Below are positions 6,406 through 20,676 of a stretch of 21,015 nt of DNA, piece by piece (the stretch's first letter is position 1; each line of letters opens with the position of its first letter). Location of the stretch: IMG/VR virus record IMGVR_UViG_3300035523_000066, positions 1-21,015 of that record; one strand, 5' to 3'. This DNA is from a virus. Under the pieces are notes generated by a model, which saw nothing but the letters and a program-made list of their open reading frames with translations, ran no database searches and was not told the DNA's origin. Position numbers and translations under genes: made by a program.

Positions 6406-9002
6406 TTGGTGAAGTGATTAAGGAATACCTGGTCAGCCTTGGCGTGCAAATTGATAGACCCGGCTTTACTCAAATGCAAAGCACCCTGAACCAGACTAGC
6501 GGTACGGTAGCTTCCGCCACATCCGGATGGACCAAAAACTTTGTTACTGCCGGAACCATCATCGGTACGGCTCTGGCCAGTGTCACTGCCTCCATCGCCG
6601 GTGTTATGACGGCAGCAGCCAAACAGGATCTGTCTATGGAGAAATACGCCAGGAATATGCTGATATCCAAAAGTGCTGCTCTGGAAATGAAAACGGCCAT
6701 GGATGCGCTGGGAGAATCAGTACAGGATATTCAGCTTACGCCGGAATTGATGGGTCGCTACCGGGCGCTGGTTTCTGACGGGCGCAATATGAAAGTCGGC
6801 GGCGATTACGAAGGGACGATGAAAAATTTCCGGGACCTTATTTTTGAGTTTACCCGGTTGAAACAGGAAGCCAGTTATGCTTTGCAGTGGGTAGGGTATT
6901 ACCTGATGAAACATTTGTCGAAGCCATTGGCGGATGCTAAAGAGTCGTTTCGTTCCTTTAATGATAACTTGATAAAAACAATGCCCGTGTGGACAGAAAA
7001 AGTCGCACGGGCATTGGTCTATGTGATCAATATCGGCAAGCACTTCCTGGAGCTATTAAAGTCTATTGGAAAAAGCATCTATGAGGTTTGGGATGCCTTT
7101 CCACGTGGAATTAAAATTGCCACGGCTGCACTGGCCGGATTTTTTATGCTGCTCAGGGCCTCGCCACTGGGCCGGATGCTTGCCTTAGTCAGTTCGCTTC
7201 TTCTGTTGGTCGATGATTATTTTGGCTATATGGAAGGCAAGCAGGCTGCCATGGGTTCTGTTTGGGATAAACTGAACGCCTATATGGAAATTGCCAAGCA
7301 GAAAATGACCGAATGGGGCGAGAAGCTGGAACCCATTTGGGATAGTTTCGTCGGGTATCTCGAAACAGCCAGGAGCGGCGTGGTTGACCTGGCAGGGACA
7401 TTTTCTGACTGGATACAAGAAATCCAGCAATCGAAGGAAGTCAATGAATTTGTTGCCGTTATAAAGGAATTGGGCAGCGCATTCTATGACCTTGGTTCTG
7501 GTATCGTGGAGCTTGTCGCGGACGCCTGTAAGGATTTACTTGCGTCTTTCAAAGGCCACGATATCGCCACAAAATTTACCGACCTCATGGAACGATTAAA
7601 GGGCATCCTATGGGCGCTGCTTGAAGCATTAGGCGATTGTATTGAAACACTTGGAAAGTGGTTCAGTGAAATCGCCAAGTCGGAGGGAATGCAGGATTTG
7701 ATTGACGCTGTAGTAGAGTTGGTTGGCGCGTTGCTGGATTTATTTAACGCCCTAATTGATCTGGTTACAGTAGCCTTTTCCGGTTTTTTTGGTGAGTTGG
7801 GGAAAACCCAGAAAGCGTATACCTTCCGGGAGGCTGTTCGTGCTGTGGTTGGTGTGATTTCGGCCATGGTCCGAATCATTGCCGATGTGATCGAGAGCCT
7901 GGCTAAGTTCTTCAAAATGATGGCTGATAATAGGCTTTTCAAAGAATTTTGGAAAGGCATCGCGCAGGCCGTGAAGGTGTTCGGTGATGTAGTATTCGGC
8001 GTAATTGCGTCTGTAGGTAAATTAGGCCAGGCACTTTTAGCGCTGGTCCGCGGGGATTATAAGCAAGCAATGAAGCTGGCGGGAGATGCATTGTTTGGTA
8101 AGGCTGAGGCCGAAGGGAAAAGAGACAATTGGCAAGGTGGTCATACTGAGGGGTTAGGCGATGGAGAAACAGCAGCAGAGCCTTATATCCAGGAGGCGGC
8201 AAAACAATATAACCTTAACCCTAATTTGTTACGAGCGCTCATTAAGCAAGAATCAGGATTTCAGCCGGGCATCGTATCCCCTGCCGGCGCAATTGGATAT
8301 TCACAGTTAATGCCGGAGACTGCTAAGGGATTAGGAGTCAATCCCTGGGATCCACACGAAAATATTTTAGGTGGAGCTGAATATCTCAGGCAGCAATTAG
8401 ATACTTTTAACGGTGATATTGAAAAGGCATTAGCCGCTTATAATGCGGGGCCACAGGCTGTTATAGATTATAAAGGTATACCGCCTTACGCTGAAACACG
8501 TAATTATGTTGATTTAGTATTAGCTAATTTGCAAAATTACGAGCAACGGACTGTATATGACGAACAGAGGAATAATAACAATAAGGAATCGGTAACACCT
8601 GATCAACCCGTATTAAAAAATCCACCCGAGGGTATGCATGAACCTACATGGATTGATCGGTATCAGGAATGGTGGCAACGGTTATTGCAATCTTCTGCGG
8701 GTGCAGAGTCGGACACAGCTACTTTAGCTCGACCTTCATCCTATTTAGTGAATGGTTTTGCAAACGCTGATCCAATGTTGTTGAGCAGCCTCATGGGAGG
8801 TAGTTATCCGGCATATGCGCAAAGTTCTGGAAGCGTTATTAACATCACTAATCATGTCGAAGTTGGCGGTGTGGAAGTGGCGAACACTAACGCATCGAGC
8901 CAGGAAATTGGCAGGGCTGTAGGGAAGGAAACTGTATCCAGTTTAAATGACAGAGCTACCTATGTTCTACAAAATAGGGTACTGAATGGGATACAAGCAT
9001 AA
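6402..9002 (+). CDS. Tape measure protein with embedded lytic transglycosylase domain
   Basis: This is the longest gene (866 residues). The N-terminus ([18 protein letters not shown]) and a hydrophobic segment at about residues 46-73 (ATAGT-, [12 protein letters not shown]-type) are typical of tape measures. Long amphipathic helices fill residues 80-560. Residues about 598-708 form a soluble lytic transglycosylase domain: [20 protein letters not shown] with catalytic Glu617, then [17 protein letters not shown] and [12 protein letters not shown]. The C-terminus ([15 protein letters not shown]) is a conserved tape measure end. It sets tail length and, after ejection, can open the cell-wall layer. 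GTG 6402 overlaps the preceding stop; GGGAG lies 11 bases upstream. A strong terminator follows the stop. Confidence 0.93.
6979..7016. repeat. Long-armed inverted repeat inside the tape measure gene
   Basis: The 11-base arms CAATGCCCGTG (6979-6989) and CACGGGCATTG (7006-7016) are perfectly complementary. Inside them GAC (6992-6994) and GTC (7002-7004) can add three pairs around an A-rich loop. It encodes part of the helix [19 protein letters not shown]-rich hairpin of this size in a coding sequence is unlikely by chance, but no T-run follows, so it is not a standard terminator. Confidence 0.8.
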
Positions 9003-15916: not shown

Positions 15917-16417
15917 ATGGCACAAACAAATTTTAAAGTATTCAATGAAGAAATGAGTTCCGACAGGACTTTTAATGATTCCGAATACAGCCTGGCCACG
16001 CAGAGGCAGGGCGGAGTAATCCCCGGCATGGCATTAAGCCGGCTACACAATAAATTGTATCGACAATCTACCGCCATGGCTAAAGCGATTGCAGACTTTT
16101 TGGTGGTTCAAGGTTATGACGCCATGGATAACAATATTGAAGGTATCACGCTGGGGCTACGAACTGCCATTGAGGGGATTATAGCAGATAAGACTGCAGG
16201 GATGGGTATCAACACCCTGAAACGCAATCATATCTACGCCGTTGGTGACGTAGCCTTTAGTCCCAATCTGCCGACATGGGCGCGGTTAGACTGCATTGTG
16301 GCCGGGACAACAGCAGAGGTGGAGTCAACGTGGGGAACGGTGATCGAAGGGCAGCAGATTGTTGATGGTAGCGCGACATGGCTTATCGCTGATGTCAAGC
16401 ATGCGTTTTACGGGTAA
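15917..16417 (+). CDS. Short tail fibre / tail-tip protein
   Basis: This 166-residue protein begins MAQTNFKVFNEEMSSDRTFND, a common opening of tail fibre N-termini in this type of phage. A collagen-free helical part (LSRLHNKLYRQSTAMAKAIADFLVVQGYDAMDN) follows, then a strand-rich C-terminus (IYAVGDVAFSPNLPTWARLDCIVAG). It lies directly after DUF2612, the usual place for the fibre gene. It is short for a receptor-binding fibre and has no obvious distal domain, so the true receptor-binding or receptor-modifying part may be the SGNH-Cys protein encoded two genes on. AAGGAGGG lies ideally before ATG 15917. Confidence 0.75.
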   Translation: MAQTNFKVFNEEMSSDRTFNDSEYSLATQRQGGVIPGMALSRLHNKLYRQSTAMAKAIADFLVVQGYDAMDNNIEGITLGLRTAIEGIIADKTAGMGINTLKRNHIYAVGDVAFSPNLPTWARLDCIVAGTTAEVESTWGTVIEGQQIVDGSATWLIADVKHAFYG

Positions 16418-16427
16418 GGGAGGGGTG

Positions 16428-16697
16428 ATGATATTGGAAGAGAGTTTATTTTGCCGCTATTGTCCTTGCGCGGGCTGGTGCGATGGAAATCAAGATAGTA
16501 ATCGGCAGCTTACAGGGTATGAATTTATACCAGATCCTGACCATTGCAAGGAAATGTTTAAACGAGAGACAGAGATCACGTATAACACCTTTTTGCAGGC
16601 TGTTTTTGAGCTGCACGGCAGCACGGTAAATAAGGATTGGCATAGATTTTTAGAAAGCGAGGTGAGTGACGATGAAAATTGTATGCCTAGGCGATAG
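16428..16697 (+). CDS. Small cysteine-containing protein, unknown, upstream of SGNH-Cys gene
   Basis: About 89 residues. The N-terminal half has cysteines at 9, 12, 14, 18 and 40 (FCRYCPCAGWCDG, then DPDHC), which could bind a metal, and a helical second half (ITYNTFLQAVFELHGSTVNKDW). A last Cys is at 85. I do not recognise it. GGGAGG near 16418-16423 leaves ATG 16428 close and TTG 16434 at better spacing, so the start is uncertain by two codons. Its 3' end overlaps the hydrolase gene by 26 bases, so it is in the same operon. It may be a tail chaperone or a helper of the modification system, but it may also be an unrelated fibre-region protein. Confidence 0.6.
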   Translation: MILEESLFCRYCPCAGWCDGNQDSNRQLTGYEFIPDPDHCKEMFKRETEITYNTFLQAVFELHGSTVNKDWHRFLESEVSDDENCMPRR

Positions 16698-17922
16698 CCT
16701 AACAGCTGCGTATGGATCATCGGCGCAAATTCCAGATATGGCGGCAGCCGCTCCATACAACTGGGTAACGCTGCTTAACAATTCTACGGCTGATCAATAT
16801 ATCAACTCTGGAGTCAGTGGAGAAAGAATTGATCAGATGCTTGCGAGGTTTAGCACCGATGTGCTGGCAAAATCACCAGATACGTGTATTATACTTGGGG
16901 GGATCAACGATCTATTTCAGCGAAAAACAGTGGCCGAAACTATCGGGAATATCTCTGCGATCGTGAATCTTTGCAAAACCAACAATATAACACCGATTGT
17001 GGGAGTTCCGATCCCGGAATGGACTTTCGCTTGGCGGTTTACCGAGGGTTTTGACGCGGGAAATTATTCGCCTACAGAATACAATTTCTACCTTGAGCAA
17101 TCGGGGGAAATGTCCGCGTTAAGAGAAGCGGTTCGGCAGTATTGCTTGCAAAACAAGGTTATTTTTCTGAATTTGTATAACACTGAATTCTTGACCTCGC
17201 CAACCACACAAGATTCGACTTGCTACCTGTCAGATAAAATCCATCCTAACGAAAAAGGTTACCGGATTATGGCAAAGCATATCGCTAGCACTATCGCACT
17301 CATTAAACATCAAGTCATTCGGGCCGCGCATATTGCCAACCTCCGAACAGCGCTTACGGCGGAACTCACGCGCCGAGGAATGAGCAGCCAGGCCACTTAT
17401 GCGGCAGATCTAACCATAGGAAAACCTATCAAAGCAGTGCATGTACAGGAGCTCATGGATAAGCTTACGAATATAAAAACGGCGGTTTACACGGATAATC
17501 CAATTATTCTAAACAGGACAACAGTAAAGGAATTACATCAAACAGAGATATCAGTAATGACTGATTTGCTGGCAAGTTATCCAAAGCAGGGCGGAATCAC
17601 AAGCTGCAATACAAGTTGCACCGGATTATGTGTATCTTGTACCGGATCATGTACAGGTGGTTGCACAAGCTGCACTGGCTGCAGTGGTTGCGGTGCTAGC
17701 TGCAGTACCAATTGTAATAATGATTGCTATACTGGATGTCATGGAAGTTGTAAATTTTGGTGCAATAGTTGTAATGCCACGTGTACAGCTGCTTGTGATA
17801 GCACCTGCGCATCTTCTTGTGCAGGTAATTGTAACCAAAATTGCTCTACCGGATGTACGTGGCAATGTGCTGCAAACTGTTTGACTTACTGCGAAGCGGC
17901 TAATCTTGCGATAAATCATTAA
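16672..17922 (+). CDS. GDSL/SGNH hydrolase with C-terminal cysteine-rich domain
   Basis: A 416-residue protein in three parts. Residues 1-210 are an SGNH hydrolase: block I GDSLT with Ser9, block II around Gly50 (SGVSGERID), block III GGIND with Asn79, and block V DKIHP with Asp188 and His191. It probably removes acyl groups from a host surface glycan. Residues 211-308 are a helical linker. Residues 312-407 hold 26 cysteines spaced only by two or three residues and rich in Thr, Ser, Gly and Asn; 26 of 96 is extreme. There is no signal peptide, so disulfides are not expected before release. ATG 16672 follows GAGGTG by 7 bases and is preferred over GTG 16666. The radical SAM gene downstream suggests its cysteine tail is the substrate. 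Confidence 0.85.
   Translation: MKIVCLGDSLTAAYGSSAQIPDMAAAAPYNWVTLLNNSTADQYINSGVSGERIDQMLARFSTDVLAKSPDTCIILGGINDLFQRKTVAETIGNISAIVNLCKTNNITPIVGVPIPEWTFAWRFTEGFDAGNYSPTEYNFYLEQSGEMSALREAVRQYCLQNKVIFLNLYNTEFLTSPTTQDSTCYLSDKIHPNEKGYRIMAKHIASTIALIKHQVIRAAHIANLRTALTAELTRRGMSSQATYAADLTIGKPIKAVHVQELMDKLTNIKTAVYTDNPIILNRTTVKELHQTEISVMTDLLASYPKQGGITSCNTSCTGLCVSCTGSCTGGCTSCTGCSGCGASCSTNCNNDCYTGCHGSCKFWCNSCNATCTAACDSTCASSCAGNCNQNCSTGCTWQCAANCLTYCEAANLAINH
17605..17892 (+). repeat. Coding repeat: 26-cysteine C-x2/3-C array
   Basis: From Cys312 to Cys407 of the SGNH protein the spacing between cysteines takes only two values: 20 intervals of three residues and 5 of two. The two-residue gaps cluster in the first third (VS, TS, TG, SG) with one more in the middle (NS). 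Intervening residues are mostly Thr, Ser, Gly, Asn and Ala, with a few Trp, Tyr, Lys and Phe. Cys codons mix TGC and TGT, and DNA-level repetition is modest, so the array looks selected at protein level rather than recently copied. Confidence 0.9.
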
Positions 17923-17939
17923 AAAAAGGAGGGATTAGT

Positions 17940-18383
17940 TTGTTTGAAGCGAACAAACTTGATGTTTTGGCCAATTCAAGAGTGGTAACATCATTGTTAA
18001 CGGGGGAGCAATATTCTACAATTTATGATAATTACGTGAGCGATATTGGGAATATAGATAAATCACGGCTTATTTATAATTTTTATTTGCTCATCAATAA
18101 GTTGCAGCAGGAACATATTGCTTTTTTTGACTACTTGGTAACGCAAATGCCGGATAATGAAGCGGAAATAATTCTTACGAAGTTAATGCTCTTAGCTGAT
18201 GGAAAAAAATTAGATGAAATAAAAGAGTTGATTGACTATTATTATACAAAATTTCCTGTTTGCAAAGATATTCTTTTGATTGAACTTGACTATTTAAGCC
18301 ACAATTTCAGCGATAATTTGGACAAAATTCAAACGCTATTAAAGAAAATTGATGCTCTTTCTTTGGAGGAAACAAATGCTTAA
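17940..18383 (+). CDS. Small helical protein, candidate partner of the radical SAM maturase
   Basis: I do not recognise this 147-residue protein. It is acidic and almost all helical with no signal or membrane segment: helices around YSTIYDNYVSDIG, RLIYNFYLLINKLQQEHIAFFDYLV, EAEIILTKLMLLADG, LDEIKELIDYYYTKF and KIQTLLKKIDALSLEE. It stands between the cysteine-rich substrate and the radical SAM gene and overlaps the latter by 8 bases. In peptide maturation systems that position is often held by a recognition element (PqqD-like RRE). This protein does not look like the winged-helix RRE fold, so it could be a different kind of adaptor. TTG 17940 is favoured by AAGGAGGG at 17926-17933. Confidence 0.65.
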   Translation: MFEANKLDVLANSRVVTSLLTGEQYSTIYDNYVSDIGNIDKSRLIYNFYLLINKLQQEHIAFFDYLVTQMPDNEAEIILTKLMLLADGKKLDEIKELIDYYYTKFPVCKDILLIELDYLSHNFSDNLDKIQTLLKKIDALSLEETNA

Positions 18384-19533
18384 ATATTTTAGACGTCCAC
18401 AGCAAAATGAACTAGCTGATAACCTAACCTTTATCGTTACCGATGACTGCAACCTGCGCTGCCGATATTGCTATCAAACAGATAAACAGCCACGCGATAT
18501 GAGTGTTGAAACAGCTTTGCAAACAGCAGATTACTTTTTTGATATATACCAAAATAAGTATGACAAAGTAGTATTTGACTTCATTGGAGGTGAGCCGTTC
18601 GTTAGAATTGATCTTTTAGACAATGTAATTCCATACATGATAAAGAGATTCGAGCGGCAAAAAGCAAATGGTAAATGGAAGTCGATGCTGCTGGGATTTT
18701 CCACGAATGGTACCTGCTTTGGTGATGAACGGGTGAGGGATTTAATCGCAAAATATGGGAATTACATGTCTGTCGGATTGAGTCTGGATGGTGTAAAGGC
18801 CATCCATAACTACAACCGCGATAATTCATTCGATGAGGTAATGCGGTGGTTTGCGTACTGGCGGCAAACCTTTCCTAGGTCCAGTACTAAGTCAACATTG
18901 AACCACGAAGCAATACCCTATGTATTTGAAAGTATAAAATTCTTGACCAGTACTTGCCTTAATGAAATCTACATGAATACGATATATGAGGATTGTTGGC
19001 AGGAGGGGGACGATCAGATATTTTATGATCAACTCAAACAAGCAGCCGACTATATACTGACCAACAAAATCTACAAACAAAAATATGTATCTCTCTTTGA
19101 TACCAATATGTTAGTGGATGCAAATACGGACTGCAACTGGTGCGGTACCGGCAGTTGCATGTTGGCGGTGGATTATCAGGGTGATATATTCCCGTGCATG
19201 AGATTTAAGACATTATCCAAAATGGAACCACTGGCAATTGGGAATATAAAGGATGGTATTGACTATAAAAAGCTACTGCCGTTCTATTTCTGCCACAATA
19301 CGAAAAACAAACCAGATTGCGAGAACTGCGAAGCCCGTCAGGGCTGCCCGAACTGCACTGCATTTTGTTATAACGAAACGGGTAGCATCTTTGACAGGGT
19401 ATCGTATATGTGTAAAATGCATGTCGCGCGCAAAAAAGCCAATGAATACTATTGGAATCGGATGGCAGAAATCGAAGGAGTTAATCTAGCGGAATTGTTA
19501 ATAACAGAGCTAGACTCTATTCTTATGGGGTGA
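18376..19533 (+). CDS. Radical SAM/SPASM peptide maturase
   Basis: A 385-residue enzyme. The radical SAM cluster motif CNLRCRYC gives Cys25, Cys29 and Cys32, and GGEP (71-74) is the SAM-binding loop. The C-terminal SPASM domain has Cys261 and Cys274 around the G-x4-C signature (YQGDIFPC), Cys253 and Cys256, and the pattern Cys315-x2-Cys318-x5-Cys324-x2-Cys327-x3-Cys331 ending with Cys346. It should hold one SAM cluster and two auxiliary [4Fe-4S] clusters. SPASM enzymes of this architecture make thioether or C-C links in ribosomal peptides; families acting on CXXX-repeat peptides are known. ATG 18376 is preferred over an upstream in-frame TTG 18349 because GGAGG lies 6 bases before it. Confidence 0.92.
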   Translation: MLKYFRRPQQNELADNLTFIVTDDCNLRCRYCYQTDKQPRDMSVETALQTADYFFDIYQNKYDKVVFDFIGGEPFVRIDLLDNVIPYMIKRFERQKANGKWKSMLLGFSTNGTCFGDERVRDLIAKYGNYMSVGLSLDGVKAIHNYNRDNSFDEVMRWFAYWRQTFPRSSTKSTLNHEAIPYVFESIKFLTSTCLNEIYMNTIYEDCWQEGDDQIFYDQLKQAADYILTNKIYKQKYVSLFDTNMLVDANTDCNWCGTGSCMLAVDYQGDIFPCMRFKTLSKMEPLAIGNIKDGIDYKKLLPFYFCHNTKNKPDCENCEARQGCPNCTAFCYNETGSIFDRVSYMCKMHVARKKANEYYWNRMAEIEGVNLAELLITELDSILMG

Positions 19534-19796: not shown

Positions 19797-20137
19797 TAAC
19801 CGAATATCAGATTGTGTTATGTGCCGCTGGGGTAATCCTGGCGGCTAATATTTTGGCTATGGCGCTGTTTGTGCTGTATGCCAAAATGCCCGAAAGCAAG
19901 ATAAAAGAGACAATTCGAAACATCATTTTTGAGTTAGACCGATTTGCGGACAACATGGAGAACGCTGAAAAACGCCGGACAGCGATTCAGCAGATCAACG
20001 AGGTTTTGGGATGGCGCCGCGTTTTGGTACCAGGTGCGCTCATCGGCTGGGTAATTGACGCGGAAGTGGCCGCTATTCGCAAAATGCAGCAGACTACAGA
20101 TTGTCCAAATTTACATGAGGAGAGTGATGGTAAATGA
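19793..20137 (+). CDS. LLH-family phage holin
   Basis: This 114-residue protein has one clear N-terminal membrane segment (YQIVLCAAGVILAANILAMALFVLY), then a charged helical part (IKETIRNIIFELDRFADNM, then AEKRRTAIQQINEVLG), with a C-terminal half ALIGWVIDAEVAAIRKMQ that matches LL-H-type holins. These set the time of lysis by making membrane lesions that let out the amidase. Its start overlaps the XhlA-like stop and its stop overlaps the amidase start by 4 bases, so accessory protein, holin and lysin are coupled in a single lysis cassette. Confidence 0.78.
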   Translation: MITEYQIVLCAAGVILAANILAMALFVLYAKMPESKIKETIRNIIFELDRFADNMENAEKRRTAIQQINEVLGWRRVLVPGALIGWVIDAEVAAIRKMQQTTDCPNLHEESDGK

Positions 20138-20676
20138 AAATATTTATTAACCCCGGCCATGCGCCGGATGGTAATCCAGATCCCGGAGCATGTAATCCAA
20201 GCACCGGACTACGTGAATGTGATGTGGCGGCAATCATTGGTGCGAAGACCGCCGAATATCTAAATGCGGCCGGATATGAAACGCAAGTGTTGCAAAGCGA
20301 TTCGCTCAGTGAGGTTGTGGGTACGGCCAATGCTTGGCCGGCTGACGCATTCGTAAGTATCCATTGCAATGCAGCCAATACGACAGCCCGGGGCGCGGAA
20401 ACTTGGTACTGCTACAATTCCGGTGCAGGAAAAAGATTGGCGCTGCGCATCCAAAGTCAGATCGTCAACTCACTTCTGATTGTCGATCGTGGAGTCAAGT
20501 ATGCCATGCCTGGTCGAAACGGTCTGTACGTCCTGACCAATACGGATATGCCGGCGGCACTCGTGGAAACGGCGTTTATTGATAACGCCGATGACGTGCA
20601 GCTGCTCGCTGATCCGGAGCGACAGAACGAGTTGGCCCGGGCGATTGCCAGAGGAATTAGTGATTATTTTTCGTGA
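20134..20676 (+). CDS. N-acetylmuramoyl-L-alanine amidase, endolysin (Amidase_3)
   Basis: This 180-residue enzyme is a single Amidase_3 domain with no wall-binding domain. Zinc ligands are visible: His9 in NPGH, Glu28 in RECD and His77 in SIHCN, with catalytic Glu145 in LVETAFIDN. It cuts the bond between muramic acid and the stem peptide. It has no signal peptide, so it needs the holin upstream. A lysin without a binding domain is usual for phages of diderm hosts, where the wall is thin. ATG 20134 overlaps the holin stop by 4 bases. A gap of 69 bases with a hairpin follows. Confidence 0.92.
   Translation: MKIFINPGHAPDGNPDPGACNPSTGLRECDVAAIIGAKTAEYLNAAGYETQVLQSDSLSEVVGTANAWPADAFVSIHCNAANTTARGAETWYCYNSGAGKRLALRIQSQIVNSLLIVDRGVKYAMPGRNGLYVLTNTDMPAALVETAFIDNADDVQLLADPERQNELARAIARGISDYFS

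Follow-up and report, generated by a model that had tools for sequence, protein, structure and literature searches.

Arrangement of the locus

The window, that is, the whole stretch of DNA that was analysed, comprises 21,015 nucleotides and covers positions 1 to 21,015 of the IMG/VR virus record IMGVR_UViG_3300035523_000066. Matches to PHROGs and Pfam place head, tail sheath, tape measure, baseplate and DUF2612 proteins in its upstream part. Three tandem genes, encoding an SGNH-Cys protein, a 147-aa protein and a radical SAM/SPASM enzyme, lie between the tail and lysis genes of this contractile-tailed phage. The features are listed below with the evidence for each.

15917-16417, + strand: tail-fibre-like protein, the last clear tail gene upstream (phrog_11303 tail fiber, 5.4e-6)
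16428-16697, + strand: 89-aa ORF that runs into the start of the SGNH gene (ORF only, within 16359-16697)
16672-17922, + strand: SGNH hydrolase, recognition-like domain and Cys array in one protein, the proposed substrate
16684-17298, + strand: SGNH/GDSL hydrolase domain (PF13472, 5.9e-26; GDSL, GxND and DxxHP blocks)
17311-17583, + strand: divergent copy of a conserved helical domain of ~100 aa with an E..RR motif, proposed to serve recognition (HMM, 23.9 bits, E 2e-6)
17605-17892, + strand: Cys array, 26 Cys in 96 aa (20 CX3C and 5 CX2C)
17940-18383, + strand: 147-aa helical protein, a possible adaptor (ORF; predicted all-helical)
18376-19533, + strand: radical SAM/SPASM peptide maturase, TIGR04115-like (TIGR04115, 2.9e-90; PF04055, 3.3e-14)
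20134-20676, + strand: Amidase_3 endolysin, the downstream lysis gene (PF01520, 1.9e-41)

An earlier reading of the sequence alone had described the three genes in this order, with an 8-base overlap between the second and the third, and had placed them between the tail fibre and lysis genes. The ORF list of the window agrees with it in coordinates, order and overlap, and the flanking tail-fibre-like and Amidase_3 genes agree with the placement. A strong ribosome-binding site precedes each start (gcgagg for 16672, aggaggg for 17940 and ggagga for 18376), and the layout is operon-like. The first ORF has a further in-frame GTG at 16666, while the second starts with TTG. The 89-aa ORF belongs to no PHROGs or Pfam family and has no homologue among the related loci.

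The 147-aa protein showed no significant match in NCBIfam, PHROGs or Pfam, and no homologue was found among all ORFs of the related loci or in phage records. The single-sequence AlphaFold model is all-helical and of low confidence (pLDDT 46.5), too poor for use. The idea that this protein is a TIGR04116-like partner of the enzyme was rejected, as it does not match that family. Of the three-gene RiPP-like unit that had been proposed, the pairing of array and enzyme is conserved in relatives; the 147-aa protein has no counterpart there.

The SGNH-Cys protein

The first gene encodes 416 residues that comprise an SGNH domain, a short helical region and a C-terminal Cys array. The hydrolase domain belongs to the SGNH/GDSL family (PF13472, 92.5 bits vs a cut-off of 32.9), with GDSL at aa 7, GxND at aa 77 and DxxHP at aa 188, and also resembles the phrog_6102 lipase (4e-21) and phrog_5240 tail fiber (3e-9) families. 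No separate known tail-attachment domain was recognised in the protein. The array occupies aa 312-407, opens with CNTSCTGLC and proceeds in CX3C or CX2C steps only. The SGNH domain and the 26-Cys array of the sequence-only reading thus both hold, by family match and catalytic blocks for the one and by a count of Cys spacings for the other. The intervening residues are chiefly G/S/T/N/A, with only two D and no E.

The Cys codons of the array are mixed (12 TGC, 14 TGT), the Gly, Ser and Thr codons also vary, and TRF returned only a weak 34-base match on the array DNA. The array is therefore a selected protein sequence, and an artefact of a DNA tandem repeat was ruled out. Residues 301-369 match phrog_6085, an unnamed phage family, at 7e-5. 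The target models TIGR04114 and TIGR04117 did not match the SGNH-Cys protein up to an E-value of 1.

The radical SAM enzyme and its known relatives

The enzyme was claimed to be a radical SAM/SPASM maturase, and both hallmarks are present: the cluster motif CX3CX2C at C25/C29/C32, together with GGEP, and the SPASM-type residues C256, C274, C315, C318, C324, C327 and C346. All ten of these Cys are invariant across 13 aligned sequences. The best NCBIfam family is TIGR04115, the radical SAM enzyme of the CXXX-repeat system, which the window enzyme matches over its full length (2-359 of 359) with 303.3 bits; this falls short of the curated cut-off of 350 bits. Two phage enzymes from other loci exceed it (L018, 652 bits; L037, 466 bits). 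TIGR04115 enzymes are expected to neighbour a CXXX-repeat target, and here the 26-Cys array lies in the next gene but one. Judged by these matches, the window enzyme is related to the CXXX system and probably works like it, though it is no formal member.

In the CXXX-repeat system, the TIGR04115 maturase acts with a TIGR04114 or TIGR04117 target and the accessory proteins TIGR04116 and TIGR04119. The likeness extends to the proposed substrate, the CX3C/CX2C array of the window being of similar composition. However, the proposed target in the window is a 416-aa hydrolase rather than a short peptide, the unit is located among phage tail genes, the enzyme is under the cut-off, and no TIGR04116 or TIGR04119 protein was found in the window.

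The second-best family is PapB (NF047865), at 167.8 bits far below its cut-off of 340. The PapB/PapA ranthipeptide system shares the four-residue Cys spacing in an ordered array, but acidic residues are rare in the array of the window. NCBIfam also places SCIFF- and QhpD-type maturases high, the SCIFF maturase TIGR03974 with 90 bits vs a cut-off of 425. The best relative of solved structure, by sequence, is a SCIFF maturase (PDB 5WGG, 5e-21). The radical SAM/SPASM architecture is common to both enzymes, whereas the SCIFF substrate is short and has six Cys.

Pairing of the array and the enzyme in other phages

Single-sequence scans with the enzyme (viral and genome collections) and with the SGNH-Cys protein (viral contigs) gave no close relatives, nor did megablast against phage records. 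IMG/VR was scanned with a profile of three sequences, which fetched 59 viral radical SAM loci. A Cys-array gene lies near the related enzyme in 44 of them, and these array genes hold from 8 to about 160 Cys. The remaining 15 comprise four in which the enzyme is cut by or near a contig end, one with a weak, different radical SAM gene and no array nearby (L063), and ten TAG-recoded loci that mostly form one related group. An enzyme gene found equally often without a Cys-rich neighbour had been named beforehand as evidence against the proposal; what was found is an array in 44 of 59 loci, with one TAG-recoded group as the exception.

Ten viral loci had seemingly broken radical SAM frames. Decay of these genes was considered and rejected, as the frames are open once TAG is read as Gln. 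The TAG-recoded loci L043-L049, L052, L053 and L055 have kept the enzyme and mostly a TIGR04116-like protein too, with no array within their flanks. L015, L029, L030 and L033 are also TAG-recoded phages that bear the enzyme.

The reciprocal scan used as query the domain of ~100 aa found in front of most arrays and fetched 39 loci. The radical SAM enzyme is present in 35; three of the others end near the array, which leaves 35 of 36 where a judgement can be made. The exception, L165, carries arrays and no radical SAM gene within its 31.8-kb record. It has two array genes (7296-8606), one of them with an internal stop, and decay after loss of the enzyme is possible. As a control, 96 loci were fetched by a baseplate protein: five have both array and enzyme (three of them distinct), 91 have neither, and one alone never occurs (hypergeometric 1.6e-8; 7e-6 once near-copies are removed). 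Taken together, the reciprocal scans and the baseplate control establish the pairing as real, conserved and widespread among phages.

These data bear directly on the view that the array is unmodified, forming disulfides or binding metal, and that the enzyme has a different substrate. The TAG-recoded group with the enzyme and no array within its flanks, and the arrays of L165 without an enzyme, would fit such a view. It is nevertheless very improbable in the face of a near-perfect co-occurrence in both directions, the baseplate control included, and of an array-enzyme pair that recurs in differing gene orders.

In many related loci, a neighbour of the enzyme gene encodes a protein of ~100 aa. 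A model built from 21 phage relatives of this protein matches the TIGR04116 protein of L002, a Bacteroidetes-like locus, at 2e-7, and this match appears to tie the phage systems to those of the hosts. The same model finds nothing in the window.

Several further features of these loci were recorded. A second, near-pure Cys-array protein without the helical domain adjoins the domain-bearing one in L018 (6787-7581), L025 (6674-7258), L061 (6587-7225) and L087 (8583-9215). LAGLIDADG-bearing inteins are present in four phage radical SAM genes (L050, 6858-9206; L041, 2362-4734; L054, 6780-9167; L067, 6804-9143). The insertion point is in each case immediately ahead of a cluster-binding Cys in CX3CX2C, the second in L050 and the third in the other three. 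Two radical SAM genes in tandem occur in the jumbo phage phiEaH2 of Erwinia (L288); jumbo phages with such a pair, of which phiEaH2 was the one looked at, were set aside as a different system, given the low identity and the lack of an annotated Cys-array neighbour.

A helical domain in front of the array

An HMM of the domain was built from 23 other phage proteins with their arrays masked, and it matches aa 214-304 of the SGNH-Cys protein. At the cut-off of a wider masked scan, the model matched array proteins only. The alignment has an invariant Glu and two invariant Arg (E..RR), all kept in the window copy, which is otherwise divergent (15-28% identity to relatives). The aligned arrays open with C-x3-C-x-G-x-C directly after the domain; in some phages, the domain is placed after the array. 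AlphaFold predicts a small helical domain at moderate confidence (pLDDT mostly 70-87), and a search with this model gave no convincing PDB match and one weak viral match. The SGNH-Cys protein has the traits of the class, namely the E..RR domain, an array beginning CxxxC[TS]GxC behind it and a radical SAM gene nearby. With moderate confidence, since the match is remote, it may be assigned to the class of proteins that combine this domain with an array. We infer that the domain guides the enzyme.

Enzyme phylogeny and host systems

The enzyme tree groups 52 phage and prophage rows into a single clade (SH-aLRT 99) and sets the host-peptide enzymes of Bacteroidetes and Clostridia in a separate one. 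The enzymes of the window, of L058/L060 and of Margulisbacteria fall outside both on long branches. The AU test does not reject a placement of the window enzyme inside the main phage clade (p 0.156). The nearest host enzyme, from Maledivibacter, is 40% identical and adjoins a short Cys peptide. Such neighbours are typical of the host relatives: CXXX peptides with Tat-like SRREFF leaders in Bacteroidetes, and short Cys peptides in Clostridia. The Cys-array proteins of Margulisbacteria/Termititenax (L090-L095 except L093) measure about 500-670 aa, contain 79-122 Cys and begin with an unrelated N-terminal region; they adjoin a separate radical SAM lineage.

Association with the tail

The sequence-only reading regarded the substrate as tail-associated, and the relatives carry this point further. 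In other phages, the genes just upstream of the unit belong to baseplate wedge, tail fibre and collagen-like tail families. The window and the system-bearing phages share homologous baseplate and DUF2612-like genes, and L007 has a homologue (4e-51) of the tail-fibre-like protein at 15917-16417. L060 has the array at the C-terminus of a tail-collar fibre protein (PF12571, 1.8e-40), L058 at that of a tail fibre protein (PHROG tail fibre, 2.6e-32). The array is combined with an F5/8C-like domain in L040 and with a glycine-rich domain in L050; in L041, the helical domain and array follow an N-terminal region without family assignment. The fusion to an SGNH domain fits a pattern in which arrays are joined to surface-acting parts of the tail. 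A search for SGNH or fibre proteins with such Cys tails near SPASM enzymes had also been suggested; the profile scans yielded the two fibre fusions, and an SGNH fusion was not seen in the relatives. Gene position and fibre fusions in the relatives make a tail-associated substrate well supported, and the array protein of the window is probably part of the virion.

The alternative is that the modified array protein is no virion part and is instead soluble, set free by lysis or produced within the infected cell, for example as a secreted esterase-RiPP or as a competitor-killing or exclusion factor. The host relatives of the enzyme do pair with short, exported-looking CXXX peptides, and the ancestral use may have been secretion. 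However, the genes next to the unit in the window include no recognised exporter or protease, the array of two phages is fused directly to a tail fibre protein, and the upstream genes are tail genes. A soluble product is therefore considered unlikely.

Proposed mechanism

The explanation that best accounts for the whole is that the radical SAM enzyme crosslinks the array of the SGNH protein, guided by the helical domain, to form a rigid tail stalk; we give it an even chance of being correct. The enzyme would modify the C-terminal array in the cytoplasm before the virion is assembled, and the helical domain in front of the array, with its E..RR motif, would guide it in the manner of a RiPP leader. 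Each Cys, or each repeat, would probably receive one intramolecular thioether link, and the resulting series of links would give a rigid stalk stable to proteases and redox. In a reducing, anaerobic cytoplasm, such a stalk could not rely on disulfides. The modified protein would then be built into the tail, at the tip or in the fibre region, and its SGNH esterase would act there on surface glycans of the host. That the array is the substrate of the neighbouring enzyme, that the chemistry is thioether formation and that the role is mechanical are each put forward here as probable.

The nature of the chemistry deserves separate consideration. We know of no TIGR04115-type product, and the literature searched yielded none. 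This leaves room for another modification of the array, such as epimerisation, C-C links or Cys conversion, that would serve adhesion or metal binding and not stiffness. The intervening residues, mainly G/S/T/N/A and rarely D/E, are unlike those of PapB substrates and would suit such a reading. On the other hand, profile scores place PapB, which forms thioethers, nearest among the characterised families, with SCIFF- and QhpD-type enzymes also high, and on balance we hold a different modification to be improbable.

PapB forms Cys thioethers to Asp/Glu in CX3D/E motifs (PMC9413430). The scarcity of acidic residues in the array of the window means that this CX3D chemistry does not carry over, and it was rejected as a direct analogy. 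For the thioether links proposed here, the acceptors may be carbons of Gly, Ser, Thr or Asn. Several observations count against the crosslinked stalk: the rarity of acidic acceptors, the missed TIGR04115 cut-off, the long branch of the enzyme, the lack of a TIGR04116-like partner, the remoteness of the helical-domain match, the TAG-recoded group without a nearby array and the lack of a separate known tail-attachment domain in the SGNH protein.

Novelty and significance

The sequence-only reading knew of no described system of this kind, and this has to be withdrawn in part. The enzyme type is catalogued as TIGR04115, whose cut-off L018 and L037 pass, and phrog_6085 already covers the array. 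The proteins of phrog_6085 and the related phage Cys-array proteins have arrays like that of the window but lack the SGNH domain. The SGNH/GDSL esterases and tail fibres of phages (phrog_6102, phrog_5240) are alike in the SGNH region, but none was seen with a Cys array or a radical SAM enzyme. The system in phages is much wider, and the SGNH fusion is one special instance of it. No account of TIGR04115, CXXX repeats or phage tail modification by radical SAM enzymes was found in the open literature searched. Some phages may crosslink parts of their tails in a manner not described before.

It is about an even bet that many phages, often of the gut or rumen, crosslink structural tail proteins by a dedicated radical SAM enzyme and a RiPP-like recognition domain, with an esterase-bearing stalk as the form seen here. 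If so, RiPP-type radical chemistry would have a new use, building virus particles and not peptide antibiotics alone. It would explain covalently stabilised tail parts in phages of anaerobes, in which disulfides are barred before lysis, and it would give a function to TIGR04115 enzymes and to phrog_6085, neither of which has one assigned.
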